A stretch of DNA of 64,000 nt from a virus, in the IMG/VR virus record IMGVR_UViG_3300024333_000005, positions 21,242 through 85,241 of that record; one strand, 5' to 3'. Under the pieces are notes generated by a model that saw nothing but the letters and a program-made list of their open reading frames with translations, was not told the origin of the DNA and did not search any database. This document shows positions 7,710 through 55,700 of this stretch, piece after piece. Position 1 is the stretch's first letter. The number at the start of each line of letters is the position of its first letter. Position numbers and translations under genes: made by a program.

Positions 7710-7712
7710 GCC

Positions 7713-8489
7713 ATGAGCGTCCTCCGGGGCGGCTCGCACAGGATGGCGGTCTGGACCCTGGTCCACTTGGACGGCTTGCGCCGGGGGAGCATCGTCGACG
7801 GGCAGTATGCCTGCGAGGGCTACACCGAGCGGCTGGGCGCGGCCTGGGCCGAGGTTCCTCTGCCGCAGCGGGCGCCGGCCTGGCAGTGGACCCGGGCCGA
7901 GGCCGAGGGGGCAACCTTCATCGCCCGCTTCTGGGCACCGAACGCGACCCTGATCGAGCGGCAGCGCATCCTCGACCGGGTGGCCGCCCTGCGAGAAGCG
8001 GTGCGCTCCGACCCGACCCTCGGCCGGCCGCCCCGGATGCGCTTCACCTGGGGCAGCCTGGGCTACGACTGCGTGGTCGCCGGGGTGGGGGACCTGCGCT
8101 ACGAGGAGCTGTGGTCGGACGGCTCGCCGAAGGCCGTGACCTGCCGGGTAGAGCTGATCCGCTACGCCGACCCGCCGGCCCTGGAGCCGACCGACCTGGC
8201 GGCCCCCGAGCACCTGTCCCGCTACCGGCCCATGCTGGAGGGCGGGACCTACGAGACGATGGCCCTGAAGGAGTGGGACAACCCCTCGCTGGGCGTGCTG
8301 CTCCGCCAGGAGAACGACCTGGCCTTCCCGCCGGCCGGCACCATCGTCCGCTGCCCGGCCGCTGACCACTTCACCGGGAAGGCCCTGCGGCCGGTCGCCT
8401 ACGCCCTGTCCGACGCCGAGCCGGCGGTGGCGGCCCGGAACGCCCTGCTCGACGCCCGGGGCGGGGCGGTCGAGGTCGCCTACCTGTGA
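7713..8489 (+). CDS. Tail/baseplate protein of the contractile-system tube/LysM type
   Basis: This 258-residue protein follows the tape measure. The middle segment (residues about 105-155) has the pattern RPPRMRFTWGSLGYDCVV followed by a D/E-rich turn and VELIRYADPP, characteristic of the contractile injection system tube/LysM-bearing adaptor (T4 gp53/Afp7-like) that links the tube to the hub. The C-terminal part (residues 200-258) could be a LysM-like peptidoglycan-binding module (PPAGTIVRCPAAD), though that is weaker. ATG 7713 is 3 bases after the tape measure stop. The next gene starts by GTGA overlap. Family assignment is by pattern recognition. Confidence 0.65.
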   Translation: MSVLRGGSHRMAVWTLVHLDGLRRGSIVDGQYACEGYTERLGAAWAEVPLPQRAPAWQWTRAEAEGATFIARFWAPNATLIERQRILDRVAALREAVRSDPTLGRPPRMRFTWGSLGYDCVVAGVGDLRYEELWSDGSPKAVTCRVELIRYADPPALEPTDLAAPEHLSRYRPMLEGGTYETMALKEWDNPSLGVLLRQENDLAFPPAGTIVRCPAADHFTGKALRPVAYALSDAEPAVAARNALLDARGGAVEVAYL

Positions 8490-9685
8490 CCGACCTGATG
8501 GCCCCGGCCTTCGCCCTGCGGGTCGAGGGCGGCCGCCTGGGCGAAGACGTGACCCGCCGAGTGCTGGGTGTGCGCTGGGAGCACACCCTGGACCTGGCCG
8601 CGTGCCTGGAGGTCGCGCTCGACGACACCGGGCACACCCTCTCCGATGGCAAGTGGTTCGCCCCCGGCAACGAGCTGGAGCTGTACCTGGGCTACGGCAC
8701 CGAGCTGACCTTCGTCGGCCGGGGCGAGATCATGCGCCACCTGCCGACCTACCCCCGGGACGGGGCCCCGACCCTGCGGGTCCGGGCCTATGACCGGGGC
8801 TTCCGGCTGGGCCTGGCCCAGACCGAGGTGACCGGCGGCCGGAGCGACCGGCCGAAGCGCAAGCCCGGAGCGCAGGCGGGCCGGGTCCACAAGGGAGAGC
8901 TGGGCCGGGTGGTGGGCGAGTTGCTGGACGCCCACGGCATCACCCCGCTGGTCGACCCCGAGCTGGTCGGCGAGCGGGTGACCTACGTGCAGAAGAAGGG
9001 CACCACCGACCTCCAGTTCCTCCGGGCACTGGCCCGGCTCTGGGGAGCCGAGCTGGCGGTCGAGTGGGAGCCGGACTCGACGAGCTGGGTGGGCTACTTC
9101 CTCAAGCCCGGCCGGCGGCCGCAGACCGAGCGCTACACCTTCCGCTGGGGCGACGGCGACCGCACCACCCTGCTCGCGGTGGAGCTGGAGTTCGGCACGC
9201 CGGAAGGGGCGACCGACCTCGAAGCCTACGTCTGGGACCGGGCGGCGGGCGAGTGGCGAGCGCTCCGGGAGGCCAAGTACACCGCCGGCCGCTCGGAGAA
9301 GGCCGAGCCTGGGAGCGTGGCCGAGAGCCCGGCCCTGGGGCGGCATGCCCGAGCCGGGTCCACCGTGGACCCGATCACCTCGGCCACCCGGCTGCTCCTG
9401 GCGGTCCGGGGACAGAGCGTCGAGGTGCTGACCCGACCGTTCCAGAACGCGGCCCAGGCGCAGCGCTTCGCCCTGGACTGGTGGGCGCAGCACCGGGACG
9501 CCTTCGTGTCGGCCCGGGGCCTACTCCCCGGGGTCGAGACCCTGCGAGCTGGTCAGACGCACCGGCTGGAGGGCCTGGGGGTGCGCCACGACGGGGACTA
9601 CTACCTGACCCGAGTCGAGCACCGCTGGGAGCCCGGCTCCGGCTACCTGGTGAGCTTCGATGGCCACAAGGTGCTGACCGAGTGA
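8486..9685 (+). CDS. Baseplate hub protein, phage late control gene D/gp27-like
   Basis: This 399-residue protein has the layout of P2 gpD and T4 gp27: an N-terminal beta domain defining ligand-like geometry (WFAPGNELELYLGYG near residues 53-67), a middle domain with a TTDLQFLRALARLWG helix near residue 180, and a C-terminal barrel. Hub trimers join the tube to the spike. GTG 8486 overlaps the previous TGA, so translation is likely coupled. The next gene is the spike, the expected order. Confidence 0.82.
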   Translation: MTDLMAPAFALRVEGGRLGEDVTRRVLGVRWEHTLDLAACLEVALDDTGHTLSDGKWFAPGNELELYLGYGTELTFVGRGEIMRHLPTYPRDGAPTLRVRAYDRGFRLGLAQTEVTGGRSDRPKRKPGAQAGRVHKGELGRVVGELLDAHGITPLVDPELVGERVTYVQKKGTTDLQFLRALARLWGAELAVEWEPDSTSWVGYFLKPGRRPQTERYTFRWGDGDRTTLLAVELEFGTPEGATDLEAYVWDRAAGEWRALREAKYTAGRSEKAEPGSVAESPALGRHARAGSTVDPITSATRLLLAVRGQSVEVLTRPFQNAAQAQRFALDWWAQHRDAFVSARGLLPGVETLRAGQTHRLEGLGVRHDGDYYLTRVEHRWEPGSGYLVSFDGHKVLTE

Positions 9686-10335
9686 GGCTCGACTACCGGG
9701 ACGTGACCGAGGGCACGGTCACCGACATCGCCGACCCGGAGCGGCGGGGCCGCATCCGGGCGACGGCGCCGGCCCTGCTCGGGGATGGCCTGGAGCTGCC
9801 CGACTGGATCGAGCCGACCTTCCCCTTCGCCGGCCCGGGCTGCGGCCTGTTCCTGGTGCCCCCGGTAGGAGCGGCCGTCGAGCTGGAGCACGTGGTCGGG
9901 GCCGCCGACGACGACGTGCCCGGGACTGCTCCCCTGCTCAACCCGCAGTACCGCTGGCGGGCGGGGCTCTGGCGCAGCACCGCCGATGTGCCCGAGGACT
10001 TCCTGCGGGACTACCCCCGCCGGCTGGGCCTGCGCTCGCCGGGCGGGGCGACGGTGGTGCTCGACGACGCTGGCTCCCGGCTCATCCTCAAGGCCGGCAC
10101 CCTGCGCCTGGGCGCCGACAATGCGGCCGAGCCCCTGGTGCTGGGCGAGGTCTTCCTGGCCTTCATGGGAAGCTTCATCGACTACTTCCTGGGGCACTTC
10201 CATGCCACGTCGGGCGGTCCCTCCGGCCCTCCCGACCCGGCGACGGTCGCCGGCATGCAGGCGCTCAAGGCATCCGACGTGACCGGCCGAGCGCTGGTGT
10301 CGGACGAGAGCTTCGCCCGCAAGGGAGGCCCCTGA
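9682..10335 (+). CDS. Baseplate spike/assembly protein V (gp5 OB-fold type)
   Basis: The 217-residue product starts at GTG 9682 inside the hub stop. Residues 1-90 show the OB-fold typical of P2 gpV and T4 gp5: GTVTDIADPERRGRIRATAP then PFAGPGCGLFLVPPVGAAVELE. A DYPRRLGLRSPGG-like segment and repeated strands (residues 110-150) fit the start of the needle. The spike caps the tail tube and pierces the outer layer of the cell. The C-terminal 60 residues are less regular, and no lysozyme domain is present, unlike T4 gp5. Confidence 0.82.
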   Translation: MRLDYRDVTEGTVTDIADPERRGRIRATAPALLGDGLELPDWIEPTFPFAGPGCGLFLVPPVGAAVELEHVVGAADDDVPGTAPLLNPQYRWRAGLWRSTADVPEDFLRDYPRRLGLRSPGGATVVLDDAGSRLILKAGTLRLGADNAAEPLVLGEVFLAFMGSFIDYFLGHFHATSGGPSGPPDPATVAGMQALKASDVTGRALVSDESFARKGGP

Positions 10336-10709
10336 TGCTCAACCCCGCCAGCCTGGAGGCGGCCCTGGAGGCGGCGCTCCTGGCGTTCTTGACCAACGCC
10401 GAGGCGGTGGCCAAGCTCAAGGTGCTGGAGGCGTTCGAGCACGGCATGACGTTCACCGACCCCGGCTCCGGGGCCCAGGCCCGCGAGGAGGTGGCCGAGC
10501 GCATCGCCGCCAGCTTCACCGCCGACGTGGCGGCCGCAGGCCACGTCGGCACCCTGGCAACCGCCCTGGCCGCCGCCGTGGATGCCTTCGTGCGGCCGGC
10601 CGTGGTGACGGTGCTCCCGCTCGACCTGGGGCTCCAGACCAGCACCCCGCCGGGCTCCCCGACCGCGGGACCCGCGGCGCCGGCAACCATCACCGGGGGC
10701 CTGTCGTGA
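10335..10709 (+). CDS. Small baseplate-region protein, unknown
   Basis: 124 residues, beginning by TGATG overlap with the spike gene. The N-terminal 75 residues are helical and alanine-rich; the C-terminal 25 are proline- and threonine-rich and probably flexible. I do not recognise it. Genes of this size and composition often sit between spike and wedge gp25 in myoviruses and may be structural or assembly factors. There is no membrane segment or signal peptide. Confidence 0.6.
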   Translation: MLNPASLEAALEAALLAFLTNAEAVAKLKVLEAFEHGMTFTDPGSGAQAREEVAERIAASFTADVAAAGHVGTLATALAAAVDAFVRPAVVTVLPLDLGLQTSTPPGSPTAGPAAPATITGGLS

Positions 10710-11065
10710 CCGGCCTGGCCATTCCCGTCCGGGCGGCCCAGGGCCGGGTGGTGCTGGAGTCCGGCGAGCGGCAGCTTGCGAAGATCATCTCCCTCGCCCT
10801 GCTCGACGGCGACAGCGACCACCCCTACGGCGACGACGCCGGCACCGACAGCCCGGTCTTCGGGCTGCGCACCCCGGCGCTGGAGGCCCTCTACCGCCAC
10901 CGCGTCGAGGGCCACTTTGCCCGGCTGGAGGCGGGCCATCGGGCCCGGCTGCTCTCCCTCGACTTCCCCGGGGCGGCCGCGGGCGAGCTGCGGGTGGCGG
11001 TACGCTACGTGAACCTGGAGACCGACCGGGAAGGCGAGGTCGTCCAGACGATTCGGAGGGCCTGA
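10706..11065 (+). CDS. Baseplate wedge protein, gp25/GpW-like
   Basis: 119 residues, GTG start overlapping the previous stop (GTGA). Placement just before the baseplate J gene is the normal position of gp25-like wedge proteins, which nucleate the sheath at the baseplate. The core (residues about 20-105) has mixed alpha/beta character and closes with LRVAVRYVNLETDREGEVVQ, resembling the terminal strands of the gp25 fold. The typical EPR-like signature is not obvious, so this is a moderate call based on position, size and pattern. Confidence 0.6.
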   Translation: MTGLAIPVRAAQGRVVLESGERQLAKIISLALLDGDSDHPYGDDAGTDSPVFGLRTPALEALYRHRVEGHFARLEAGHRARLLSLDFPGAAAGELRVAVRYVNLETDREGEVVQTIRRA

Positions 11066-13221
11066 TGCCGACCGTCTCGCCGCCCGGGCTGCGCTACAGC
11101 GGCCTCTACTACCCCGAGCTGCTCCAGGATCTCCTCGTCTGGCGCCGGGCCAACCTCCCCGAGCTGGACGACGAGGACCCGAACGAGCCGCTGATCCAGC
11201 TTCTCCGGGCCTTCGCCCTGACGGGCCACTACAGCAACGTCCTGATCGACCATGTAGCCCAGGAGTGCCTGCTCCCGACTGCCCGTCTGCGGGAGAGCGT
11301 CCGGGGGCTGCTCGCGCTCATCGGCTACCGCCTGCGGCAGCCGTCTCCGTCCAGCCTCGACCTGCTGCTCAAGCTGGCCGCACCCCTGACCGCGGCTACT
11401 TCCTTCCCGGCCCGGATGCGCTTCGGTACGCAGCCGGCCGGCGATGCCGCGGCGGTGGTCTTCGAGAGCGGGGCCGCGGCCCTGACCGTGGCCCGCACCG
11501 ACCGGCTCACGCAGGCGTGGGAGTACGACGCCAGCGGGCCGACCTGGACCGACCGCACCGCCGCCCTCAACGGGCTGGCCGGGCCCTTCGATCCCTGGGG
11601 CGGAGTGCCGGCCGCCGGCGACTGCCTCTACCTGGGGCACAGCGGGGCGCTCTGGGACGAGGTGGTCCTGACCCTTGCCGCCCTGGGCGACCTGTTCACT
11701 GTGCCTGGCTGGTACGTCTGGGAGTACTACGACGGCCAGCTTGACCGGGCCTACCCGACCGGGGTAGCCGACCTGGGCGGAGGGCAGCTCCGCTTCGACC
11801 TGACTGGCCTGCTCGGCGCCGTCACCCGAGCCGGAGCCCAGGTCCAGGTCCGCTGCCGGGTCACCGGCAAGGCCGCGACCGTCGCCTCTGCCTGGGTGGG
11901 CGGCAAGAACACCGCCACCACCACCTACCTCGGCCAGGGCGCCCCCTCCCTGCTCGCCGCCGACTACCTGGTGGGGGCGGCCTGGCGGGAGCCGGCCGCG
12001 GTCGCCGAGACGGTCGACGGGCTGGCCCGCACCCTGCGCTACGACCTGCCCGAGGGTCTGCTCCGGCGCTGGCAGACCGCCGCGGTCAACGGGACCACCG
12101 CCTACTGGCTGCGGCTGCGGGTGGTGGGGGGCTGCGCCGCTCTGGACTCGCCGCAGCCTTCCCGGGCGCGGATCGAGGGCCGGGGTCAGTGGCTCAAGAT
12201 GCTGGGTACGCAGGGGGAGAGCGCCAGCGATGATCCGGCCGGGACCTCTTCCGGCCTGGCCGACCAGACCTTCACCACCGTCGAAGACGACGTGATCGAG
12301 GGCACCCTCGCAGCCTACGCCGACGAGGGCGCCGGCGACGTGGCCTACGCGGTGGTCGACGACTTCCTGGCCTCCGACTCGGAGGACCGGCACGTGGCCG
12401 TCGCGTTCGACGCCGACGGCCGAGCGACCGTCACCTTCGGGGACGGCACCAGCGGGCGCATCCCGCCGGCGGGCAGCGTGATCCGGCTCGACTACCGCCA
12501 CGGAGCGAGCCCCGACGGCAACGTTGGCGCGGGCGAGGTGACGGTCAACCGGACCGGCGCGGCCTACGTCACCCTCGTCTCCAATCCCCGGCCGGGCGAG
12601 GGGTGGCAGGCGGCCGACGGGGCCGATGCCGCCGACCTGGCCCGGGTCAAGGTGGCCGGGCCGGCCTCCCTGCGCAACCTGGGCCGGGCCCTGACGGTTG
12701 AGGACGTGGACGCCCTGGCGGTCGAGTTCGCCGCGGCCGACGGGACCCGGCCCTGTTCCCGGGCCTACGGCATCGAGGAGGCCCTGGGGCCGAAGACGGT
12801 CAAGGTCCTGGCGGTCGGCACCGGGGGCGACGCGGTGCCCGACGAGTTGCTCGCCGAGATGGACCTCTACTTCAACGGCGACCGGGCCTCCGGCGAGCCG
12901 GGGCTGCTGGTGCTCGGCACCGAGGCCACCTGCGCGAACTACACCCCGCACCCCGTCGACGTGACCGCCACCCTGACCGGGGGCAGCGTGGCCAAGGCGG
13001 TCGCCGCCCTCCAGGCGTTCCTCAACGCTCTGGCGGTCGACGCCGACGGGAACTACGTCCACGCCTTCGGGGGCACGGTCTACCGGGAGCGGCTGGTCGC
13101 CGAGCTGTTCGCCGCCGACCCCCTGGTCCGCAACGTGGTCCTGACCCTGCCGGCCGCCGACGTAGTGCTTGGCGCCGAAGAGCTGCCGGCGGTCGGGACC
13201 CTGACGGTCGTGGTGGCCTAG
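11065..13221 (+). CDS. Baseplate wedge protein J (gp6-like)
   Basis: 718 residues. The N-terminus (YYPELLQDLLVWRRANLPEL) and the HYSNVLIDHVAQECLLPTA helix near residues 53-72 are typical of baseplate J proteins, which form the dimeric wedge ring around the hub. The middle is beta-rich; a RIPPAGSVIRLDYRHG segment near residues 470-485 leads into the conserved GNVGAGEVTVN block, and the C-terminal region has the repeated alpha/beta pattern of the family. It is longer than P2 gpJ (about 300) and closer to T4 gp6 size. It starts by TGATG overlap with the gp25-like gene and is followed by a gpI-like gene. Confidence 0.85.
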   Translation: MPTVSPPGLRYSGLYYPELLQDLLVWRRANLPELDDEDPNEPLIQLLRAFALTGHYSNVLIDHVAQECLLPTARLRESVRGLLALIGYRLRQPSPSSLDLLLKLAAPLTAATSFPARMRFGTQPAGDAAAVVFESGAAALTVARTDRLTQAWEYDASGPTWTDRTAALNGLAGPFDPWGGVPAAGDCLYLGHSGALWDEVVLTLAALGDLFTVPGWYVWEYYDGQLDRAYPTGVADLGGGQLRFDLTGLLGAVTRAGAQVQVRCRVTGKAATVASAWVGGKNTATTTYLGQGAPSLLAADYLVGAAWREPAAVAETVDGLARTLRYDLPEGLLRRWQTAAVNGTTAYWLRLRVVGGCAALDSPQPSRARIEGRGQWLKMLGTQGESASDDPAGTSSGLADQTFTTVEDDVIEGTLAAYADEGAGDVAYAVVDDFLASDSEDRHVAVAFDADGRATVTFGDGTSGRIPPAGSVIRLDYRHGASPDGNVGAGEVTVNRTGAAYVTLVSNPRPGEGWQAADGADAADLARVKVAGPASLRNLGRALTVEDVDALAVEFAAADGTRPCSRAYGIEEALGPKTVKVLAVGTGGDAVPDELLAEMDLYFNGDRASGEPGLLVLGTEATCANYTPHPVDVTATLTGGSVAKAVAALQAFLNALAVDADGNYVHAFGGTVYRERLVAELFAADPLVRNVVLTLPAADVVLGAEELPAVGTLTVVVA

Positions 13222-19262: not shown

Positions 19263-19804
19263 TCCTGCTCGGCGCCCTGCTCGGGCCTGCCCCAGCGGCG
19301 GCCGAGCCGGCCGACTGCCACCGGGCCAGCACCGACGCCTGCCTCTGCATCTCGGAGGGGGCGGCGGCCCGGCTGGGCTGGCCCGCGGAGCCCGGCTGCG
19401 GGGTCCCCCCGCCAGGTTGCCGTTGCCGGCCCCAGGATGCCCCAGGACGCACGGAAGCCTCGCCCCCCTGCCTGGACCCCTCCGCCCCCTCTCCCTATGC
19501 CCCTGAAGGCGCTGGCGGCCCCCAATCGGCCACCTACGTCGGGGAGTGCGTCTGCGCCGCAGCCGAGGCGGTCGGCCGCCTGGAGGCGCGCCTGGGCCTG
19601 ACCGTGGACCGGCGGCACGAGTGCAATGCCTCCCCGCCGCCGGGCGAGGTCTGCCTGCCCGAGTCGGTTGCCGACCTGGTCCTCGCGGCCGCCGAGGCCG
19701 ACCGGCAAGTGCCCGACTTGAAGGCCGGCTGGACGGGGCTGATCGCCGGCGCCGTTCTGGTTGCCGCCATCCTGCTCAACTGGCTCTTGTGGGCCAAGGG
19801 CTAG
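19238..19804 (+). CDS. Exported cysteine-rich protein with C-terminal membrane anchor
   Basis: 188 residues if translation begins at GTG 19238, inside the holin gene. The N-terminus is a signal-peptide-like stretch (RRLILLGALLGPAPAAAEPA, probable cleavage after AAA). The middle has about ten cysteines. A transmembrane helix lies at about 161-185 (LIAGAVLVAAILLNWLLW). A signal sequence plus a C-terminal anchor is the topology of a unimolecular spanin, but the lipobox needed for outer membrane attachment is not clear (PADC). A copy of the 32-bp dispersed repeat (19426-19457) is embedded in the coding region around residues 63-74. No homologous family is recognised. Confidence 0.5.
   Translation: MAGAARRLILLGALLGPAPAAAEPADCHRASTDACLCISEGAAARLGWPAEPGCGVPPPGCRCRPQDAPGRTEASPPCLDPSAPSPYAPEGAGGPQSATYVGECVCAAAEAVGRLEARLGLTVDRRHECNASPPPGEVCLPESVADLVLAAAEADRQVPDLKAGWTGLIAGAVLVAAILLNWLLWAKG
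19426..19457 (+). repeat. Dispersed 32-bp repeat, copy A
   Basis: Begins CCGGCCCCAGGATGCCCCAG and continues through GACGCACGGAAG. It differs from copy B (37811-37842) at one base and from copy C (44941-44972) at four. Here it lies inside the lysis-cassette gene, read in a different frame from the other copies. Confidence 0.8.
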
Positions 19805-22691: not shown

Positions 22692-23654
22692 ATGGCCATG
22701 CCCCGACCGTTCCGCCTGACGCGGCGCCAGCTTGATGCCCTCGCGGTCCTGGCCGCGCTTGATCCCGCAGACCTCCGGCTCCACCCGGTAGGGAGCCTGG
22801 CCGGGGCCCTGGGAGTCAGTTGCCGACAAGCCTCCTGGCTGCTCTCCGGCCTGGTTCGCCGGGGTCTGGTAGCCCGGACGGGACCGGGAAGCAGGGGTGC
22901 GCAAACGTCGGACATTGTAGGAGATGTCCTTACAAAAGTGGCGTGCACGCCACTTTTGTCGGCACCCCTTGATTTACCTAGCGATTTTCAACTCACTAGC
23001 TTAGCTCTCCCGGAGGGAGAGCTTAGTGCGCGATCCGGGCCCTCCTGCCCTCTTCCCTTCCGGGCTCCCGCGGAGGTCCGGGAGGCGGCCTGCTACGCCG
23101 CCTCCCCGGGCGAGCTGGTGGGAGCCCTCAAGAAGCTCGCCGCCCGGTCGAACTGCCACGTCTCTCCCCGGCAGAACCGGAGGCAGGCCGGAGACCTGGA
23201 CTACCTGGGGGAGCTGTACACCTCCCGGCGGCGCCGGTTGGAGCCGGAGTACAATCCTCCCCCCGGCCTGCGGCGAGACCTGGCAAAGCTCCTGGCCGGC
23301 CTGACGCGGGTCCGCCTGGGGCGGAAGCACTGGCCCCTCTACCTGGACTTCTGCTTCAAGGCGTTCCCCCGGTTCGCGCCCCTGGCCTTCCCTCCGGCGA
23401 GGGCCGTGGCCGGCGAAGCGCTGCTCGACTCCTACCTGGCTTCCCTGGGTCGGCGGAAGCTCGACCTCCGCCGGGCGGCGGCCATGCTGGCCGCCGCCGG
23501 TTACGGCGACCTGCCGGCCTGGGTGGTGGCCGACATGGCCCGGAGCGAGGCGGCCTCCCCCGGGGCCCTGGCCGGCATCGAGGACCGCCGCTTCGCCGAG
23601 GCGGCAGCCTGGCTGCGGGAGCGGCTGGACGAGGTGGGGTACGCCGATGAGTAG
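22692..23654 (+). CDS. Replication initiator-like protein with winged helix, carrying an origin-like patch
   Basis: 320 residues from ATG 22692 (a second ATG lies at 22698). Residues 8-62 form a winged-helix/MarR-like DNA-binding domain (LTRRQLDALAVLAAL, then ALGVSCRQASWLLSGLVRRGLV). Residues 66-115 are a low-complexity linker coded by the AT-richer patch. The C-terminal half is helical and unrecognised; it ends in a small domain that could recruit the helicase. dnaB follows with an 8-base overlap. N-terminal DNA binding, linker, C-terminal helicase interaction and an internal origin copy the layout of lambda O. The initiator role is inferred from this layout. Confidence 0.6.
   Translation: MAMPRPFRLTRRQLDALAVLAALDPADLRLHPVGSLAGALGVSCRQASWLLSGLVRRGLVARTGPGSRGAQTSDIVGDVLTKVACTPLLSAPLDLPSDFQLTSLALPEGELSARSGPSCPLPFRAPAEVREAACYAASPGELVGALKKLAARSNCHVSPRQNRRQAGDLDYLGELYTSRRRRLEPEYNPPPGLRRDLAKLLAGLTRVRLGRKHWPLYLDFCFKAFPRFAPLAFPPARAVAGEALLDSYLASLGRRKLDLRRAAAMLAAAGYGDLPAWVVADMARSEAASPGALAGIEDRRFAEAAAWLRERLDEVGYADE
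22898..23027 (+). other. Candidate origin of replication inside the initiator gene
   Basis: This stretch is visibly richer in A and T than its surroundings. It contains GGACAT/ATGTCC (22910-22915 and 22924-22929), a perfect 28-bp palindrome at 22932-22959 centred on GTGCAC with arms starting ACAAAAGTGG, an AT-rich run (GATTTACCTAGCGATTTTCA, 22971-22990), and a hairpin with arms 23000-23011 and 23015-23026 (one mismatch). Binding sites plus an easily melted segment upstream of dnaB are what a lambda-type origin looks like. No function is proven. Confidence 0.55.
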
Positions 23655-26306: not shown

Positions 26307-26335
26307 TTGACTTCCCGCAACCCCGCTGCTATGCT
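26307..26335 (+). promoter_or_regulatory. Strong sigma70-type promoter
   Basis: TTGACT (26307-26312), a 17-base spacer, TATGCT (26330-26335), in the 79-base gap between primase and the MoxR-like gene. AGGAGGT (26347-26353) then ATG 26358 follow. The sequence around both hexamers is shared with the minus-strand promoter at 58657-58685 (TTGAYTTCCCGC and TATGCTTGYTGATG). Confidence 0.8.
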
Positions 26336-29566: not shown

Positions 29567-29940
29567 TGCCGACCTTGGACGAAGTTCGACGCCGCTTCTC
29601 GGCGGCATCGGCGCCTCCCGAGCCGGCCCCGGTTGACGCCCCGGACGGAGCGTCCGGGGTGGACCAGAGCAAGGTGCGGGCCCGGCGCAACCGGACGGCC
29701 GCGGCCCTGCACCGCAGTCCGGCCCCGGCGCCGTTCGCGCCCGGTGGCGCACCGCGCCTGACGAGCCGGCACTACGAGCTCCTGGACGGCGGGACCGACG
29801 CCTTGCTGCGCTTCGGCAAGCATGCGGGGAGCAAGGTGTCGGCCCTCGCGGCCCGGGGCGACGGACGCCACTACTTGTTGTGGCTCCTGGAGCAGGGGTT
29901 CCCCGAGGACCTGAAGGCGGTGGTGCGACGATGCCTCTGA
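29566..29940 (+). CDS. Small protein with ExoX C-terminal/DUF3820-like domain
   Basis: 124 residues, TGATG overlap with the VWA gene. The N-terminal 70 residues are Pro/Ala-rich. The C-terminal 50 contain FGKHAGSKVSALAARGDGRH then YLLWLLEQGFPEDLKAVV, the pattern (FGKYKGKxlxxLP..YLxWL) found at the end of exonuclease X-type nucleases and in the stand-alone DUF3820 family. No nuclease domain is present, so a DNA-binding or protein-docking role is more likely. Confidence 0.65.
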   Translation: MPTLDEVRRRFSAASAPPEPAPVDAPDGASGVDQSKVRARRNRTAAALHRSPAPAPFAPGGAPRLTSRHYELLDGGTDALLRFGKHAGSKVSALAARGDGRHYLLWLLEQGFPEDLKAVVRRCL

Positions 29941-30479
29941 AGCCCGAGGACGTGCTGGACATCGCCCGGCAGGAGGTGGCCTCCCTGCGCCTCTGCCGGG
30001 TGCCTCCCGCGGACCGGGAGGACCTGGTGCAGGCGGGAGCGGAGCGGGCCCTGCGGGCCTGGGGCCGGCTCTCGCCAGACCGCACCGAGCGGGAGCAGCG
30101 GGCCTACCTGGGGGTGTGCGCCCGGTCGGGGATCTACGACGCCCTGTCGGCCCGGGGCCGGGCCCTCGCCGAGGTCCCCTGCGGGGCGGTCGAGGTCGAC
30201 GACCTGGCGAACCCGGAGGACCTGCTGATCGCCCGGGAGGTCGGGCTGGCCCTGGCGGAGGTGCTGACCGAAGCCCTGGCCCGCATGGGGCCTCACACCC
30301 GGGCGGTAGCGCTCGCTCACCTGGGCGCCGAGCCCCTCCCGCAGTCCCTCCGGGCCGAGCTGCGGCCCGGGACCTTCTGGTGGCACGCCCACCGTGCCCG
30401 GGCCGTGGTCCGGGCCGTCGAACAGGAGAGAGGATGGGACGCCGCTTCCGGCACGGCGAGTGCCTTGTTGAGCGGCTAG
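29931..30479 (+). CDS. Sigma70-family-like protein
   Basis: 182 residues from ATG 29931, overlapping the previous gene by 10 bases. Residues 25-80 resemble sigma region 2: REDLVQAGAERALRAW, then an aromatic-containing helix EQRAYLGVCARSGIYDALSA. The C-terminal part (about 115-170) could be a weak region 4 (helix, turn, helix with HAHRARAVVRAVEQER). If functional it would direct RNA polymerase to phage promoters, perhaps late ones. The region 2 match is reasonable, region 4 is doubtful. Confidence 0.55.
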   Translation: MPLKPEDVLDIARQEVASLRLCRVPPADREDLVQAGAERALRAWGRLSPDRTEREQRAYLGVCARSGIYDALSARGRALAEVPCGAVEVDDLANPEDLLIAREVGLALAEVLTEALARMGPHTRAVALAHLGAEPLPQSLRAELRPGTFWWHAHRARAVVRAVEQERGWDAASGTASALLSG

Positions 30480-34100: not shown

Positions 34101-34746
34101 GGCCGACCCGGCGCTCGTCGAGGCGGGCACCTACCTGGTCGCGGGCTACCTGGCGGCCTGTAAGCGCTTCGATGCCGACGGCTCGGCCCGGCTGGCGCTG
34201 GCGGCGACTACCGGCGAAGAGCTGTCCCTGCGGGCCGACGCCGACGTGGCCGAGCGGGCTGGCGGTGCCCTGGACAAGGTCGGCGGGGTGGTCCTGGCCC
34301 TGGTCCACCGGACCGAGCGAGGTGCCCTGTCGGCCGAGGCACTGTGGGCGGAGGCGGCCTGCAAGAGCGACCTGCTCTTCCGGTTCTTCCGCGAGCCCTG
34401 GCGGACCCGCCCGCTCGACCCGGCTGCCGCTCTGCGGCGAGCTGGCGAGGGCCAAGCCTTCGGGGTCGAGGGGGTACTGGTCCGGGTGCGCCAGCACACC
34501 GACCGCTCCGGGGCCGCAATGCGCACCCTGGGCATCGCCGGTGCCCGGGGCTACCTGCGGGTTCTGGCCTTCGCTTCCCGGATGGGTGCGGACGTTCGCG
34601 CCCTGCGGGCGGGCGACCTGGTGAGCCTGCGGCTGCGCCGGCTTGACGGCGGGGCGGCCGCGTTGACCGATGCTCCGGCCCGCAAAGGGCCCGGGGCCTT
34701 CAAGGGTAGGGCAGTAGGAGGCCACGATGGCGCGTACGAGCGATAG
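31165..34746 (+). CDS. dnaE: DNA polymerase III alpha subunit (C-family, DnaE type)
   Basis: 1193 residues from GTG 31165. Domains in order: PHP (HLHTHSHAS at the start, AFTEHGSVRGLY near 37, ATQDAHYPEAADAY near 222) with metal ligands apparently kept; polymerase palm with GPGRGSAAGSLVAYLLGI near 382-399 and the catalytic aspartates in PDIDLDF near 424; GQIRDVGLHAAGVVLS near 530; fingers with FQFDTPTARRLC near 630 and NRPGPLAAGLAD near 655; YQEQVVALARDLAGYSPEDAD near 700; a helix-hairpin-helix (GALSALKGIGPAAAAAV near 845); and an OB domain near 1100-1180. Full-length bacterial-type replicase in a phage. It copies the phage genome, presumably with the clamp-like protein. Confidence 0.93.
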   Translation: MSFAHLHTHSHASAFDGLGRHVEFARRAAALGQPAIAFTEHGSVRGLYEAHLACAEVGLRLVPGVEAYLVEDAERRGLAEAERAALKDRPEALKRAEQERRERSHLTLWALDDEGLRNLYRLTTWSWAQGFYYKPRVDLARLRLYGAGLAASTGCAGDGHVVVPLARGDYREALDRLEDLLALFPGRLYVEVMPHVPAGREAVLPALLRLAERFDLPLLATQDAHYPEAADAYAHEVLLCIQTRGKMADPDRFRFDGREYWLRSREEMAAAFRARGLPGPAVERALDETLALADRCAARVQTAEAGRYLIAPELPAGIPTYDAWLLRLCHEGMRVRGLTGAGAAYLDRLAHELEVLWEHRFAPYFLAVWDVVRWAREQDIRVGPGRGSAAGSLVAYLLGITQLDPLRHDLMFERFIAPGRRDLPDIDLDFQADRREEVLEYLRRRYGEDRVAAISTQITFGGRRALRDLGRVFAVPDRELTPAASLLPLVPDPGDERTLAEVLGESAVGAAFVAAHPEVAEVAGRLEGQIRDVGLHAAGVVLSSVPVAEVVPLESRPRRGGARVPAVAYDMRAAEAAGLVKIDVLGLRTLVVLAEAARAAGVDPDRIDCDDPAALGIFAGGRLAGIFQFDTPTARRLCRAAASRISFEVLVALNALNRPGPLAAGLADAYVRRLVEGDAPPALHPVYDRIMAATLGVPVYQEQVVALARDLAGYSPEDADGLRKMIAKKLPGLAAEAPRFVAGATAAGLAEDEAADLFRRLVGFGRYAFNRSHAAAYAYLAVQLAFLKAHHPVAFYAAALAAEPDDRVQMRLAGEARAAGTRVSPPDVNRSRERGFGGGEGEIVGALSALKGIGPAAAAAVVAAAPFRDLLDFYRRTAGAGCRAVTARTFGVLAQATALRSLCPTGGPFLAANAAAVWARLRAGEQPELRPEAAPAWREGEQAATVSAVWPLFVDLAGQGALEGAAARLRCLWGPTHDPADPALVEAGTYLVAGYLAACKRFDADGSARLALAATTGEELSLRADADVAERAGGALDKVGGVVLALVHRTERGALSAEALWAEAACKSDLLFRFFREPWRTRPLDPAAALRRAGEGQAFGVEGVLVRVRQHTDRSGAAMRTLGIAGARGYLRVLAFASRMGADVRALRAGDLVSLRLRRLDGGAAALTDAPARKGPGAFKGRAVGGHDGAYER

Positions 34747-35005
34747 GGAGCGGCGGGCGACGGCGAGCGACATCGCCCGCCGGGCCGGGGTCGACCTGGC
34801 GGTGGTCCAGGAGGTCTTCTTGGCCATCCTGGCCGAGCTGCACCTGGGCCGGGAGGTGCGGATCGCCGGGTTCGGGTTCTTCCGGCGGCACTGGTCCCCG
34901 CCCCGGAAGCTCCGCACCCCGGTCGTGCCGGGGGGCATCGCCGAAGTCCCCGGGAGCTGGTGTGTCCGCTTCCGGCGGGCGCCGACGAGCCGGGAGAAGC
35001 TGTGA
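34727..35005 (+). CDS. HU/IHF-like DNA-binding protein
   Basis: 92 residues, ATG 34727 with AGGAGGCC upstream, overlapping the polymerase end by 20 bases. Residues 14-50 show the HU fold: DIARRAGVDLAVVQEVFLAI, then REVRIAGFGFFRRHW. The second arm and C-terminal helices are shorter and less typical, with a CVRFRRAPTSREKL end. HU-type proteins bend DNA and often help at origins, recombination sites or in phage DNA packaging. Confidence 0.72.
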   Translation: MARTSDRERRATASDIARRAGVDLAVVQEVFLAILAELHLGREVRIAGFGFFRRHWSPPRKLRTPVVPGGIAEVPGSWCVRFRRAPTSREKL

Positions 35006-37801: not shown

Positions 37802-38606
37802 CCCTGCCCGCCGGCCCCAGGCTGCCCCAGGACGCACGGAAGGAGGCCCCCCCTCCCCCGGGGGCGGCCTCTGCCCTCCCGTGCCCCCTGGTGGCGTCCA
37901 GGGGCCGTTTCGGGCCGTCGGGTGGGACCAGAGCCCGACCCATGCCGGGGTGGTGTGCCTGACCCACGAGGGCCGCCTGGCGGCCCTGTATGCCGCCTGC
38001 TCGGAGGTCCGCCACGCCAAGGCCGCTGGCCTGGCCGGCGCCGAGGCGCTGCCCCTGGCGGTCCGCGGCTGCCGGTACGCCCCCCTGCGGGAGGCCCGGC
38101 GGCTAGCCTGGTGGCGGGACTGGATCGACGGCCGGCTGGCGGACCTGGCTGACCCTCCCGCGGGCGGCCCGGTCTTCGTCGCTGTGGAGGACTACGCCTA
38201 CCGCCAGGGGCTCTACGCCCACCAGATCGGCGAGGTCGCGGGACTGCTCCGCCGTCTGCTCTGGGAGCGGGCGGTGCCGTTCCGGGCCATCGACCCGATG
38301 GCGCTCAAGCTAGCCAGCGGGGCGGCGGCCGGGGCGGTGGCCGAGAAGGTCGAGGTGGTGGCCGGGGTGGCGGCGACCTGGGGCGTGGACTTCGCCCGGT
38401 ATGGGGAGCAGGCGGCGGCCGACCTGGCCGACGCCTACGTGCTCGCCCGCCTGGCCCTGGCCGAGCAGCTTGTCGCTCGGGGCCTGGTTGGGCTCGATGC
38501 GCTCTCCGCCGGGGAGCGGCGGGTCTTCCTGCGCACCACTCGGGCCCGGCCCCTGAACCTCCTGTCGACGCCCCTGCTCTGCCCCTCCGCGGAGGACCCG
38601 CGGTGA
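37794..38606 (+). CDS. RuvC-like Holliday junction resolvase
   Basis: 270 residues if starting at ATG 37794, overlapping the RecA-like gene. The RNase H fold is seen from about residue 40: VGWDQSPTHAGVVCL (catalytic Asp), VAVEDYAYRQG near 128 (catalytic Glu), and AADLADAYVLARLA near 205 (Asp pair). The first 38 residues (Pro/Gly-rich) are coded by a GC-rich repeat element (copy B) and look like non-conserved sequence, so GTG 37881 could be the real start. It would resolve branched DNA before packaging. Confidence 0.75.
   Translation: MADPARRPQAAPGRTEGGPPSPGGGLCPPVPPGGVQGPFRAVGWDQSPTHAGVVCLTHEGRLAALYAACSEVRHAKAAGLAGAEALPLAVRGCRYAPLREARRLAWWRDWIDGRLADLADPPAGGPVFVAVEDYAYRQGLYAHQIGEVAGLLRRLLWERAVPFRAIDPMALKLASGAAAGAVAEKVEVVAGVAATWGVDFARYGEQAAADLADAYVLARLALAEQLVARGLVGLDALSAGERRVFLRTTRARPLNLLSTPLLCPSAEDPR
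37811..37907 (+). repeat. Dispersed repeat copy B with large hairpin
   Basis: Starts with the 32-bp repeat (37811-37842) and ends with a 23-bp segment (37885-37907) that is the exact reverse complement of 55595-55617. The two ends can pair (CCCCAGGACGC with GCGTCCAGGGG, one mismatch), as can ACGGAAGG and CCTCCCGT, with a CCCCCGGGGG core, giving a roughly 80-base stem-loop. It lies at the start of the RuvC-like gene. Confidence 0.7.
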
Positions 38607-45943: not shown

Positions 45944-46491
45944 GCCGCGCCTGCCGGGGCCGGCTTCGCTGCGACGGCTGCTGGCGGGCCTGCTCCTACG
46001 CCCGCTTCCGGGGCCGCGTCCCGGTCCCCGGAGGCCCCCGAGATGGCCGACGCCCCCTCCCGCCCTGGCCGCTCTTTGCGGACGAGGGCCGGGCCCAGCA
46101 GCTTCGGCTCACCGAAGCCATAGCCGAGGGCCGAGGGAAGGGCGCCACGCGCCGCACCATCCTGGGGGCCCTGCGCCGGGCCAAGCTCGATGCCTGGGAA
46201 CGGGCCCTGGCGGCCTGCCCCCGGCGCGGCGAGGCCCTCCCGCGCACCACCGAGGAAGCCCTGGAGCTGGCCTTCGCCCTCCCCGCGGTCGAGTTCCGCC
46301 AGCGCTTCCTTGGCTGGACCCCGGCCCGGGCCCGGGCCCGGCGCCAGGCGCTCTCCCTGGCCGAGTTCGCAACCTGGTGGCGGAAGGCTGGGGCCCAACC
46401 CGAGCTTCCCTTCCGGCCCCCCGACCCCGACCTCGACCCCGACGAGAGCCCCTGGAAGTACCTGCTCGACCGGGAGGAGGGCCTGGCATGA
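45940..46491 (+). CDS. Hypothetical protein with N-terminal cysteines
   Basis: 183 residues, GTGA overlap. Four cysteines near residues 5-18 (CRGRLRCDGCWRAC) suggest metal binding. A helical middle (EAIAEGRGKGATRRTILGAL) and a C-terminal segment WTPARARARRQALSLAEFA lead to an acidic proline-rich end (PPDPDLDPDESP). I do not recognise it. Possibly DNA-binding given the basic helices. Confidence 0.5.
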   Translation: MSRACRGRLRCDGCWRACSYARFRGRVPVPGGPRDGRRPLPPWPLFADEGRAQQLRLTEAIAEGRGKGATRRTILGALRRAKLDAWERALAACPRRGEALPRTTEEALELAFALPAVEFRQRFLGWTPARARARRQALSLAEFATWWRKAGAQPELPFRPPDPDLDPDESPWKYLLDREEGLA

Positions 46492-47111
46492 ATGCCCGCT
46501 CGCCCATCCCGGGCCTGGAGGCCCTGCTCGTCCCGGCCGTCACCACCCTGGTCCTGGGCCCCCTCCCCACCAACCCTCGCCCGGTCCCGCTGATCAGGGT
46601 CTCCCCGGACGCCTTCCCGCACCCCGGCCTGCGGGCCCTCCCGCATCGCCTCCCCTTCCGCGCCGCTGCCTTCCGCCAGGCCATCCTCTTCCCGCCCCGA
46701 AGCCCCCGGCCCGGGAGGAACGACTACGACGAGGCCCTGCCGCCCTCCGAGCTGGCCCGGGCCCCGGCCTCCGACCCTCATCCCCTCGACCTGGCGGCCT
46801 ACCCCCCGGGACCGACGTACTGGCGCCTGGCGGCGTACCTCGCCGACGAAGTACGCCGGGTGCTGGCCGCGGGCAAAGGAAGCTCGCACGGCCGCCTGGT
46901 GCTGGTGGTCAAGGACTTCATCGACCAGGGTGTCCCGGTGCCGATGGTGGCCACCTGGTACGACCTCTTCCTGGCCCGGCGCTTCGCCGTCGAGGGCCAC
47001 TGGCGGGAGATGACCCCCGCTTCCTGGGAGCGGCGCCGAGCAGCCCTTCCCTGGGCCCACCACCCGACCGTCGATCACTGGAACCTCCTGATGCTCCGCA
47101 AACTGGCCTGA
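46488..47111 (+). CDS. Methyltransferase-like protein, degenerate
   Basis: 207 residues, ATGA overlap. The C-terminal half resembles the second half of phage DNA methylases: YWRLAAYLADEVRRVLAAG near 115-133, GRLVLVVKDFIDQGVPVPMV near 138-157, and HWNLLMLRKL at the end. In place of a SPPY/DPPY motif there is AILFPPRSPRPGRNDYDEAL near 64-83, and no FxGxG SAM-binding loop is visible in this short N-terminus. It may be inactive, or a partner of the methyltransferase three genes upstream. Last gene before the non-coding repeat block. Confidence 0.5.
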   Translation: MNARSPIPGLEALLVPAVTTLVLGPLPTNPRPVPLIRVSPDAFPHPGLRALPHRLPFRAAAFRQAILFPPRSPRPGRNDYDEALPPSELARAPASDPHPLDLAAYPPGPTYWRLAAYLADEVRRVLAAGKGSSHGRLVLVVKDFIDQGVPVPMVATWYDLFLARRFAVEGHWREMTPASWERRRAALPWAHHPTVDHWNLLMLRKLA

Positions 47112-47458
47112 CAGGCCGACCTGCGGCCCGCGCCCTGCCATCCAAACCGCTGGCCCGAACCCCGGGAAGGGGCGCAGACCCGCACCATTGGCCGAGATGC
47201 GAGGATGGGCCGCGGAACCCTTTTTCTCGCCATCCCCTCTCTTTGGCCGGCAAGCCTCGGATCTTCCTCGGTTTTCAGGCGGCTCGGCGGCCCCGGTTCG
47301 GGGGTGAGCAAACAGGGGCGAACCCCCTACCTTGTCCTCCATTACCCACACCAAGGTTCGCGCCCCCGCCGCGCCTTCCCCCTCCCCTGCACCCCTCCCT
47401 CTACCGAGGGCACCCCTCTCCCCCTATAGTCCCCCTCTCCCCGGTCCCGGGGAGCCGG

Positions 47459-47478
47459 CCGAACGCCCGTTCGGTTTT
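47459..47478 (+). terminator. Intrinsic terminator
   Basis: CCGAAC (47459-47464), GCCC loop, GTTCGG (47469-47474), then TTTT. It would end transcripts coming from the long plus-strand operon. The T-run is also the first four bases of the 20-bp repeat copy 1. Confidence 0.65.
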
Positions 47479-47494
47479 GAGCGAAGCGTATCAG
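47475..47494 (+). repeat. 20-bp repeat, copy 1
   Basis: TTTTGAGCGAAGCGTATCAG. Identical to copy 2 (47529-47548) and to the reverse complement of copy 3 (47672-47691). Copies 1 and 3 share three more bases (GCG) beyond the unit. Copies 1 and 2 both follow a GC-rich hairpin. Confidence 0.85.
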
Positions 47495-47528
47495 GCGGAG
47501 GACCCGCCCGGAGGCCCGGCGGGCCGCT

Positions 47529-47548
47529 TTTTGAGCGAAGCGTATCAG
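47529..47548 (+). repeat. 20-bp repeat, copy 2
   Basis: Same 20 bases as copy 1, 54 bases downstream. It follows the hairpin GGCCCGGCGGGCC and a run of five T, again terminator-like. Confidence 0.85.
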
Positions 47549-47671
47549 CGAGACCGGCCGGACGCCCCGAAAGGGTCCCCCTGCAAGGTCAAAAAAGACG
47601 AAGAACAAGGGAAGATCAGCGGCTTGCAGAACAGGGTTCGCGGCTGGCCAGGGCCGGCGAGCGCCCCGCGC

Positions 47672-47691
47672 CTGATACGCTTCGCTCAAAA
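47672..47691 (-). repeat. 20-bp repeat, copy 3 (inverted)
   Basis: Exact reverse complement of copy 1. The inverted arrangement places the three copies around a 120-base segment (47549-47671) with no obvious gene. Confidence 0.85.
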
Positions 47692-48223
47692 TGCCCCTGG
47701 CGGCCCTTCCTGCCCCCTTTCCGCCTGCTCCCTGCCCGCTGCCCCGGATGCGGCTCGCCCCCGCTCTACAGGCCCGCCTGCGCCCCCTCCCCGCCCTCCC
47801 CCGGCCCCAGGCCCTAGCAGCCCTCCCCTGCACGGGCGAGCAGCCTATCTCCCGAATGCTCGTGCTCCCGGCGCGGGGGTCGGTCCCGGAGGACCTTCCC
47901 CGCGGCCACCCGTGCGGCCGGGAACCGGATTGACCGATTCGCGGGCCTGCGGCCAAAACTGGCACTGGACAACCGAGCAGACCTGGCCGGCGGGCTCCTG
48001 CCATATGCGCGCCCGCGCTGGAGGTCGGGCAATGTCCTCCCTGGTCGCACCTCTGCGCACCCCTGCCTGCCCCCCTGCCACCTCCCCCGGCGGCCGGCGG
48101 CGAGGGGGACGCGGACAGGGAAGGAGACGAGGGCGACGGGAGGGCGATGTCCTCCATGTCGTACCCCCCCCGGACTGGCTTGCGGATCGGGGGCGGATCG
48201 GGTGATCGCGGAGGCTGCCAGAC

Positions 48224-48367
48224 CCTCTCTGCGTTCGCGAGGCCGGCGGAGGGGTCTGGTCTCCAGGGCCACGCCTCTCTGCGTTCGCGAGGGAGGGGGA
48301 GGGGGAGGGGTCTGGTCCGCCAGGGGTGCCCGCTCTGCGTTCGCAAAGAAGGGGGAGGGGTCTGGTC
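48224..48367 (+). repeat. Three tandem iterons of 50-56 bp
   Basis: Each unit has CTCTGCGTTCGCRARG (starting about 48227, 48277 and 48333) followed 20-26 bases later by GGGGTCTGGTC (48251, 48307 and 48357). Units 1 and 2 share a 19-base perfect block (48224-48242 and 48274-48292). The block ends 65 bases before the ATG of the next gene, so it could be an origin, an operator array or a leader for that gene. Confidence 0.75.
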
Positions 48368-48432
48368 GGGGTGGCCGGGGGCGGCGCCGACGGCGCGCCA
48401 AGCCTCCCCCGGCGCCCGGGGTAGGGAGGGGC

Positions 48433-48756
48433 ATGCACCGGATCACCGACCGGGAAGCCCTGGCCCTGACTCGGAAGCGGCTCGCCCTTTGGAAGGCCAA
48501 GCGGGCCAAGGAGCAAGCTCTGCTCAACTACGAGCGAACCGAGGAAGCCCTGGCCGCCCAGCTCCGGGCCATCATTGCCCGGATGGAGGCCCACTGGGAG
48601 ACGCAGCCCGAGCGCTGGCAGGAGGGGGTGGAGGGGCGGCTCTTCCGGGCATGGTGGCGGCACTGGGAGAGGCAACTGGTAGCTCGTCCTCTCGACCCGG
48701 TCCTCGTGGCCGAGCTGGCCTGGGGCTGGGGCGCCGAGCTTCCCCGGGAGAAGTGA
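48433..48756 (+). CDS. Small helical hypothetical protein
   Basis: 107 residues, ATG 48433 with GGGAGGGG upstream. Basic helices early (REALALTRKRLALWKAKRAK) and tryptophan-rich helices later (ARMEAHWETQPERWQEGVEG, AWWRHWERQL). No family recognised. First gene after the iteron array, so it may be regulated by it or bind it. Confidence 0.55.
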   Translation: MHRITDREALALTRKRLALWKAKRAKEQALLNYERTEEALAAQLRAIIARMEAHWETQPERWQEGVEGRLFRAWWRHWERQLVARPLDPVLVAELAWGWGAELPREK

Positions 48757-49547
48757 TGCCTCGTCAGCTCAAGCCATACTCGGTCGGGGAGGTCGTGGAC
48801 TCGGAGAGCGGGGTCAGGGTCCCGCTGTTCCTCGACCGGAACGCCTCGCCCAAGGTGTTCTTCGGGGAGGTCTTCGGGGAGCGGCTGGCGGCGGCCACCG
48901 AGGTCGAGGTCAAGCGCCTGGTCCTGGCCCGGCTCCGGGAGGGCGTGACCTACGAGTGGGAGCGGATTGTCGTGGTCCACACCCAGGGGAGCTTCGGGGA
49001 CCGCGGGTTGATCGTGGAGTTCGGCGAGCGCGAGATTGCCCGCCGTCCGGCCGGGGGCGACCCTTGCCGCCCCTGGGTGGAGCGGAGGGTCCGTCCGGTG
49101 CGCGACCGCGTCGAGGCGACCATCAGCTCCTACTCGGGGCCGACCGAGAGCCGGCCCGAGGACGGGGTCTTCGTCTTGCCCTGGAGCGAGGCGACGATGC
49201 TCGGGCTGCGGGACATCAAGGCCCGGCTGGACCTGCTCCGGGCGCGGCTGCGGGAGGTCCTGGGAGCGCCCGAGGCGCCCGTGCTGCTCGCCCGGCTGGT
49301 GAAGGCGCTACCTGCGCCGGCCGAGGCGCCGGCCGAGGCCCCTGCCCCGCCCGGCGAGCCGGCCGAGCCGGAGGCAAGCGGGACGGTGGAGCTGGAGGCC
49401 CACTTCCAGCTTGGCCCGGACGCGGCGCCGTGGTGCCAGGCGTGCGGGTCCTACCACGTCGCCCCGGCGGACGCCGCCCACCACCAGGCGCTCCGGTGTC
49501 GGGCCCCGTGGCCGCCGGCCGGGGCTCCGGCGGAGGGGTCGAGGTGA
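48756..49547 (+). CDS. Hypothetical protein with C-terminal CxxC
   Basis: 263 residues, TGATG overlap. The N-terminal 130 residues are mixed alpha/beta (EWERIVVVHTQGSFGDRGLI). A helical segment near 148-175 (LGLRDIKARLDLLRARLREV) and a Pro/Ala-Glu linker follow. The end has WCQACGSYHVAPADAAHHQA with a CxxC and several His, a likely zinc site. Unrecognised; soluble. Confidence 0.55.
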   Translation: MPRQLKPYSVGEVVDSESGVRVPLFLDRNASPKVFFGEVFGERLAAATEVEVKRLVLARLREGVTYEWERIVVVHTQGSFGDRGLIVEFGEREIARRPAGGDPCRPWVERRVRPVRDRVEATISSYSGPTESRPEDGVFVLPWSEATMLGLRDIKARLDLLRARLREVLGAPEAPVLLARLVKALPAPAEAPAEAPAPPGEPAEPEASGTVELEAHFQLGPDAAPWCQACGSYHVAPADAAHHQALRCRAPWPPAGAPAEGSR

Positions 49548-55391: not shown

Positions 55392-55700
55392 ATGGCGAAC
55401 CCGAAGGGCTGGGTGAGCAACACCTTCAACCCCGACGAGGTGGCCGCGCTCTGTGCCCTCTTCGCCGCCCTCGACCGGCGAGACCTGGGAGAAGCCCGGG
55501 ACCTGGCGGCGGGCCCGGTCGGCCGCCACCTGCTCGCCCGCTTCCTGCGGATGCGGGAGCGGACCCGGGCCGGGTGTGCCAAGGCCGGCCGTCCCGGCCC
55601 CTGGACGCCACCAGGGGCTCGGCAAGCCCCCGGGGCGGCCCGGAGGCCGGCCCCCCTTCCCTGTCGAGCCCCTGGTGCCCCCTGGGAGGCCCCCCCATGA
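55392..55700 (+). CDS. Small protein whose 3' half is a repeat element
   Basis: 102 residues from ATG 55392. The first 60 residues look like a normal small helical protein (SNTFNPDEVAALCALFAALD, HLLARFLRMRERTRAGCAKA). The last 40 are Pro/Ala/Gly-rich and coded by a repeat/hairpin element (55595-55689), so the ancestral gene may have ended earlier or gained this tail by insertion. Confidence 0.5.
   Translation: MANPKGWVSNTFNPDEVAALCALFAALDRRDLGEARDLAAGPVGRHLLARFLRMRERTRAGCAKAGRPGPWTPPGARQAPGAARRPAPLPCRAPGAPWEAPP
55595..55690 (+). repeat. Dispersed repeat relative, copy D (inverted) with hairpin
   Basis: 55595-55617 (CGGCCCCTGGACGCCACCAG plus GGG) is the exact reverse complement of 37885-37907. 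Arms CACCAGGGGCTCG (55610-55622) and CGAGCCCCTGGTG (about 55665-55677) can pair as a 13-bp stem. The element lies in the 3' half of a small gene and reaches the start of the next. Confidence 0.65.

Follow-up and report, generated by a model that had tools for sequence, protein, structure and literature searches.

A triplicated 20-bp repeat, putatively a protein-binding site, in the largest intergenic block of a GC-rich phage genome

What is the function of a 20-base unit, TTTTGAGCGAAGCGTATCAG, that occurs in three exact copies in a non-coding part of a phage genome? The locus was analyzed in a window of 64,000 nt (the whole stretch of DNA under study, whose numbering is used throughout unless the record is named), which is part of an 85,241-base record. 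A first-pass annotation had reported two direct copies and one inverted copy within 217 bases, and exact matching confirmed this arrangement: copies 1 and 2 lie on the + strand at 47475–47494 and 47529–47548, respectively, and copy 3 lies on the − strand at 47672–47691. Between copies 1 and 3 the match is longer, giving a perfect inverted repeat of 23 bp that bounds a 217-bp segment. The unit itself is without a convincing internal dyad.

The 20-mer was also searched for in the rest of the genome, as proposed in that annotation. There are no further sites with up to three mismatches elsewhere in the 64,000-nt window. Over all 85,241 bases of the record there is no exact copy beyond the three, and the closest other site in the genome has six mismatches. 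No match was obtained in 100 shuffles of the window, and the number of copies expected by chance from base composition is about 4e-9 for the genome and 6e-11 for the gene-free block. When the 40 bases flanking each copy are compared, only 9–15 of 40 positions are equal. With flanks that are otherwise unrelated, the triplet does not look like a longer segment that was duplicated recently.

The genome carrying the repeat has 74% GC overall (72–78% per 2-kb stretch) and belongs to a contractile-tail phage (myovirus), as judged by family matches to tail sheath, baseplate wedge, terminase and portal proteins. It encodes its own replication set, composed of UvsW-like and DnaB-like helicases, a primase, UvsX/RecA, RuvC, an SbcC-like protein and a DNA polymerase III alpha subunit. 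QueC and GTP cyclohydrolase are encoded as well; their genes are found directly upstream of the gene for a predicted protein of 2,226 aa (6408–13088 in the numbering of locus L116, upstream of the window), whose first half matches DNA methyltransferases and whose end matches head maturation proteases. One other contig, IMGVR_UViG_3300045117_000395, is identical to the record at every 60-mer sampled. It bridges the record ends with one extra base, indicating that the 85.2-kb genome is circular or circularly permuted. The same contig is missing record positions 57.7–78.5 kb, which include the repeat region, and therefore has no TTTTGAGCGAAGCGTATCAG. In other relatives, no more than about 46% of residues are shared in TerL, or 42% in the polymerase; the phage is previously unseen and has no close relative.

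The description of the surroundings as gene-free was upheld by independent gene calls, made over the whole record with a purpose-made hexamer-model caller rather than a standard gene finder. In these calls, the repeats fall in a block of 1,321 bp (47112–48432) with a run of + strand genes on either side; no other intergenic gap of the densely coding genome is as large. A sliding scan located an AT-rich island between copies 2 and 3 (47582–47631; 54% A+T versus 26% for the genome), which is the third highest A+T 50-mer of the genome and one of its four most AT-rich spots. The two best sigma-70-like promoters of the genome lie in or next to two of the three other such spots (around 26.3 and 58.7 kb), and a sigma-70 promoter scan of block 47112–48432 itself found none. 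Those two promoters, TTGAYTTCCCGC...TATGCT at 26307 (+) and 58685 (−), are located in 58-bp regions that are 78% alike. Further downstream in the block, a repeat search and a comparison of shared 12-mers revealed a second family of three units of about 39 bp on the + strand (48223–48367; boxes CTCTGCGTTCGC and AGGGGTCTGGTC; unit spacing 50 and 56). A perfect G-quadruplex motif, GGGAGGGGGAGGGGGAGGGG, of which there are few in the genome, is found inside this family at 48291–48309. The proteins flanking the block have no family match, to a Pfam or PHROG initiator or otherwise, and a search for relatives with the proteins of the flanking genes 46488–47111 and 48756–49547 found none. The block is probably the main control region of the phage.

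The first-pass annotation had additionally described copies 1 and 2 as fused to terminator hairpins, with the T-run of the repeat doubling as the terminator tail. GC-rich stems do precede both copies on the + strand. Hairpin B, CCGAACGCCCGTTCGG (47459–47474; stem scan and fold), has a perfect 7-bp stem immediately ahead of the T-run in copy 1, and hairpin C, GGCCCGGCGGGCC (47513–47525; terminator scan and stem scan), has one of 5 bp that ends two bases ahead of the T-run in copy 2. In an RNA fold of 47425–47500, a further hairpin A, consisting of CTCCCCGGTCCCGGGGAG and its neighbours, is found upstream of hairpin B at approximately 47435–47454 (+). The description does not extend to copy 3, where a stem scan on its own strand found no hairpin, even though the T-run is present. 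All three copies have the T-run, which thus belongs to the repeat and does not come from the hairpins. At random positions in the block, a stem of at least 7 bp occurs in 0.5% of cases and one of at least 5 bp in 5%, so the hairpin pair is unlikely to be due to chance (joint probability about 3e-4, as the product of the two rates). A strict terminator scan yielded a single site in the region, a number not exceeding that obtained with shuffled sequence.

The hairpins at copies 1 and 2 probably form a tandem pair of intrinsic terminators for the operon upstream on the + strand. As in known tandem terminators, a gene run is followed by two GC hairpins, each with 4–5 T after it on the coding strand; unlike in those, 16 more bases are common to the copies after the T-run and a third copy is without a hairpin. 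It is likely, then, that the hairpins were placed next to a repeat having a separate reason to exist. Elsewhere in the window, a 28-bp perfect palindrome, ACAAAAGTGGCGTGCACGCCACTTTTGT (22932–22959), is likely a bidirectional terminator.

As to that separate reason, we consider TTTTGAGCGAAGCGTATCAG to be a putative asymmetric site for a sequence-specific DNA-binding protein, of either the operator or the origin-iteron type, and assign this reading a probability of roughly 0.45. It is based on identity that is exact and then ends abruptly, on the occurrence of the unit in both orientations, on its intergenic position and on the AT-rich spacer. Sequence-specific binding had been put forward in the first-pass annotation and is the most economical reading of a putative site whose identity stops sharply at 20–23 bases between unrelated flanks. 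The location in the largest gap, at an AT-rich spot and in the same block as a second three-copy family also argues for a binding site. A protein encoded by the phage or by its host would recognize two direct sites and one inverted site around the AT-rich spacer in the main non-coding control region, and binding on either side of this spacer may control the start of transcription or replication there. The direct copies would thereby sit immediately behind the hairpins proposed to terminate the upstream operon.

No iteron initiator or repressor was recognized in the phage. DNA-related candidates among its proteins are a sigma-70 region 2 protein (29931–30479) and a weak HU-like match (34727–35005), suggesting that the phage carries its own transcription factor. 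The proposed sites resemble phage repressor operators and the stoperators of mycobacteriophages in being short, asymmetric and identical sites in intergenic DNA. However, stoperators are dispersed genome-wide, whereas all copies lie within 217 bp here, and no repressor was recognized in this phage. The parts of the literature consulted offer general precedents only for clustered repeats of this kind, among them mentions of mycobacteriophage stoperators (PMC3029335, PMC5712189) and, in halovirus HF2, intergenic repeats carrying promoters (PMC8707807). Clusters of short repeats are common in phage intergenic regions, and the exact triplication of TTTTGAGCGAAGCGTATCAG in a phage gap is a common kind of arrangement, yet one without a known relative. 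The unit also constitutes a specific 20-bp bait for finding the cognate binding protein.

Alternatively, the repeat may act as RNA, with the direct copies being the tails of tandem terminators or the 3' ends of small RNAs, and with readthrough RNA pairing copy 1 or 2 with copy 3 into an extended double-stranded stem, serving as an RNase III site or an alternative-pairing switch. Besides the hairpins ahead of copies 1 and 2, this is supported by copies 1 and 3 being perfectly complementary over 23 bp (−42.6 kcal/mol), by a 23-nt pairing in which copy 2 would compete for copy 3 (−36.3 kcal/mol) and by a 281-nt region that folds better as RNA than shuffles do (z = −3.8). The excess folding energy, however, stems from the inverted repeat itself, and oppositely oriented DNA sites yield the same pairing for free; local windows on the + strand do not fold unusually. 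Moreover, terminators can do without a common tail of 16 bases, and the genome's other palindromic terminator (22932–22959) has none. A search of Rfam found no family at gathering score, with one match at chance level. We give an RNA-level function of this type, be it the processed small RNA suggested in the first-pass annotation or an RNA-pairing element, a rather low but not negligible probability. Binding and termination could also be combined: the terminator-linked copies 1 and 2 might compete to pair or loop with the inverted copy 3 across the AT spacer, coupling termination of one operon to the next initiation, whether of transcription or of replication. Such coupling via the 20-mer would be an unusual regulatory layout, and we deem it improbable. 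A phage replication origin, with the three 20-mers as iterons and the neighbouring AT-rich DNA as the unwinding element, seems unlikely. Iteron origins such as lambda ori and those of iteron plasmids likewise have non-coding repeats of about 20 bp beside an AT-rich stretch, and the largest gap, the iteron-sized repeats and the AT island at 47582–47631 (54% A+T) would all fit. So does the GC3 skew of the genes, which is mostly around −0.2 to the left (44.5–47.1 kb) and +0.13 to +0.17 to the right (48.4–49.5 kb). This positive skew does not last past 49.5 kb, though, and the cumulative GC skew has only a local minimum here, its global minimum being near 17–19 kb of the window, about 29 kb away. 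In addition, iterons usually number more than three and have a single orientation, whereas there are three copies here with one inverted, and no iteron-type initiator was recognized, the flanking proteins matching no Pfam or PHROG initiator.

The 217-bp segment could also be viewed as derived from a small transposon, or as invertible, with the 23-bp inverted repeat marking its ends. The perfect terminal inverted repeats around this segment are a feature shared with invertible switches and miniature inverted-repeat elements. Set against this, a target-site duplication is absent (flanks CGTTCGG and TGCCCCT), no match to a tyrosine recombinase or resolvase (PF00589, PF00239) was found in the record, the element has no second copy in the phage and no match in phages or plasmids, and the third, internal direct copy is left unexplained, which renders the mobile-element reading rather improbable. 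Origin from, or recognition like, an intergenic host repeat was considered in view of a dispersed acidobacterial family, GTTGGAGCGAAGCGTATCAGGCCTTTGAA. Scanning 84,980 genomes of bacteria and archaea for exact 19-mer matches gave three, compared with an estimated two or so expected by chance, and one of these falls in the acidobacterial MAG G004. This MAG has 28 sites within three mismatches, and the reversed control has none; at one of the 28, the match to the phage unit covers 22 bases. Nevertheless, the exact 16-mer occurs in G004 only among 396 genomes of the phylum, 40 members of its family have only scattered single matches, and a sampled G004 contig has 52% GC as opposed to 74% for the phage. 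The likeness is probably a coincidence, and a host-derived repeat very improbable. An assembly or duplication artefact, finally, is the least credible of these readings and can be given hardly any weight: each of the three copies has different unique flanks and the 20-base unit is shorter than usual assembly k-mers, even if the sole near-identical second contig ends before the repeat region. Overall, an invertible switch, an attachment site, a recent duplication and an assembly artefact are all disfavoured relative to a protein-binding site.

Several more specific identities were considered for the repeat and rejected. An attachment site finds no integrase family match in the genome. A CRISPR-like array is not compatible with only three 20-base units at unequal spacing, one of them inverted, nor with a 34-base interval between copies 1 and 2 that holds a hairpin. 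For an N4-type hairpin promoter, the GCGAAGC mini-hairpin has a stem of only 2 bp, and the heptamer occurs 48 times in the genome. A general phage promoter or late motif was discarded because TTTTGAGCGAAGCGTATCAG is found nowhere else and the best sigma-70-like promoters look different, and an IHF-like site because, as read from the sequence, the TATCAG half is without the second half of the consensus. Of the further functions that the first-pass annotation had entertained, a packaging signal is unsupported, the terminase genes being about 12 kb away, as is a partition site, no scanned protein resembling ParA or ParB; nothing was found in favour of a replication terminator.

Scans of IMG/VR for the exact 20-mer or 16-mer returned nothing comparable, and single 16-mer matches in four viral contigs were set aside as lying in AT-richer, unrelated DNA. 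The block had no homologous match in phages and plasmids, and a repeat census in TerL and PolIII relatives revealed other clustered repeats, none with TTTTGAGCGAAGCGTATCAG. The GTTGGAGCGAAGCGTATCAGGCCTTTGAA family of G004 is itself dispersed and intergenic, is often followed by a GC-rich stretch (CCGCTCCCTCGCGGTCACGGCTC) and is apparently confined to one species. Two other repeats were observed in the phage. One is a dispersed GC-rich repeat, approximately CCCCAGGCTGCCCCAGGACGCACGGAAG, which is intergenic at 19425, 37810 and 44940 of the window and has a fourth occurrence at about −12306, where it falls within a gene predicted upstream of the window. The other is a perfect 23-bp inverted pair, CCCCTGGTGGCGTCCAGGGGCCG, located at 37885–37907 and 55595–55617 in two intergenic regions 18 kb apart; CCCCTGGTGGCGTCCAGGGGCCG itself can form a hairpin.
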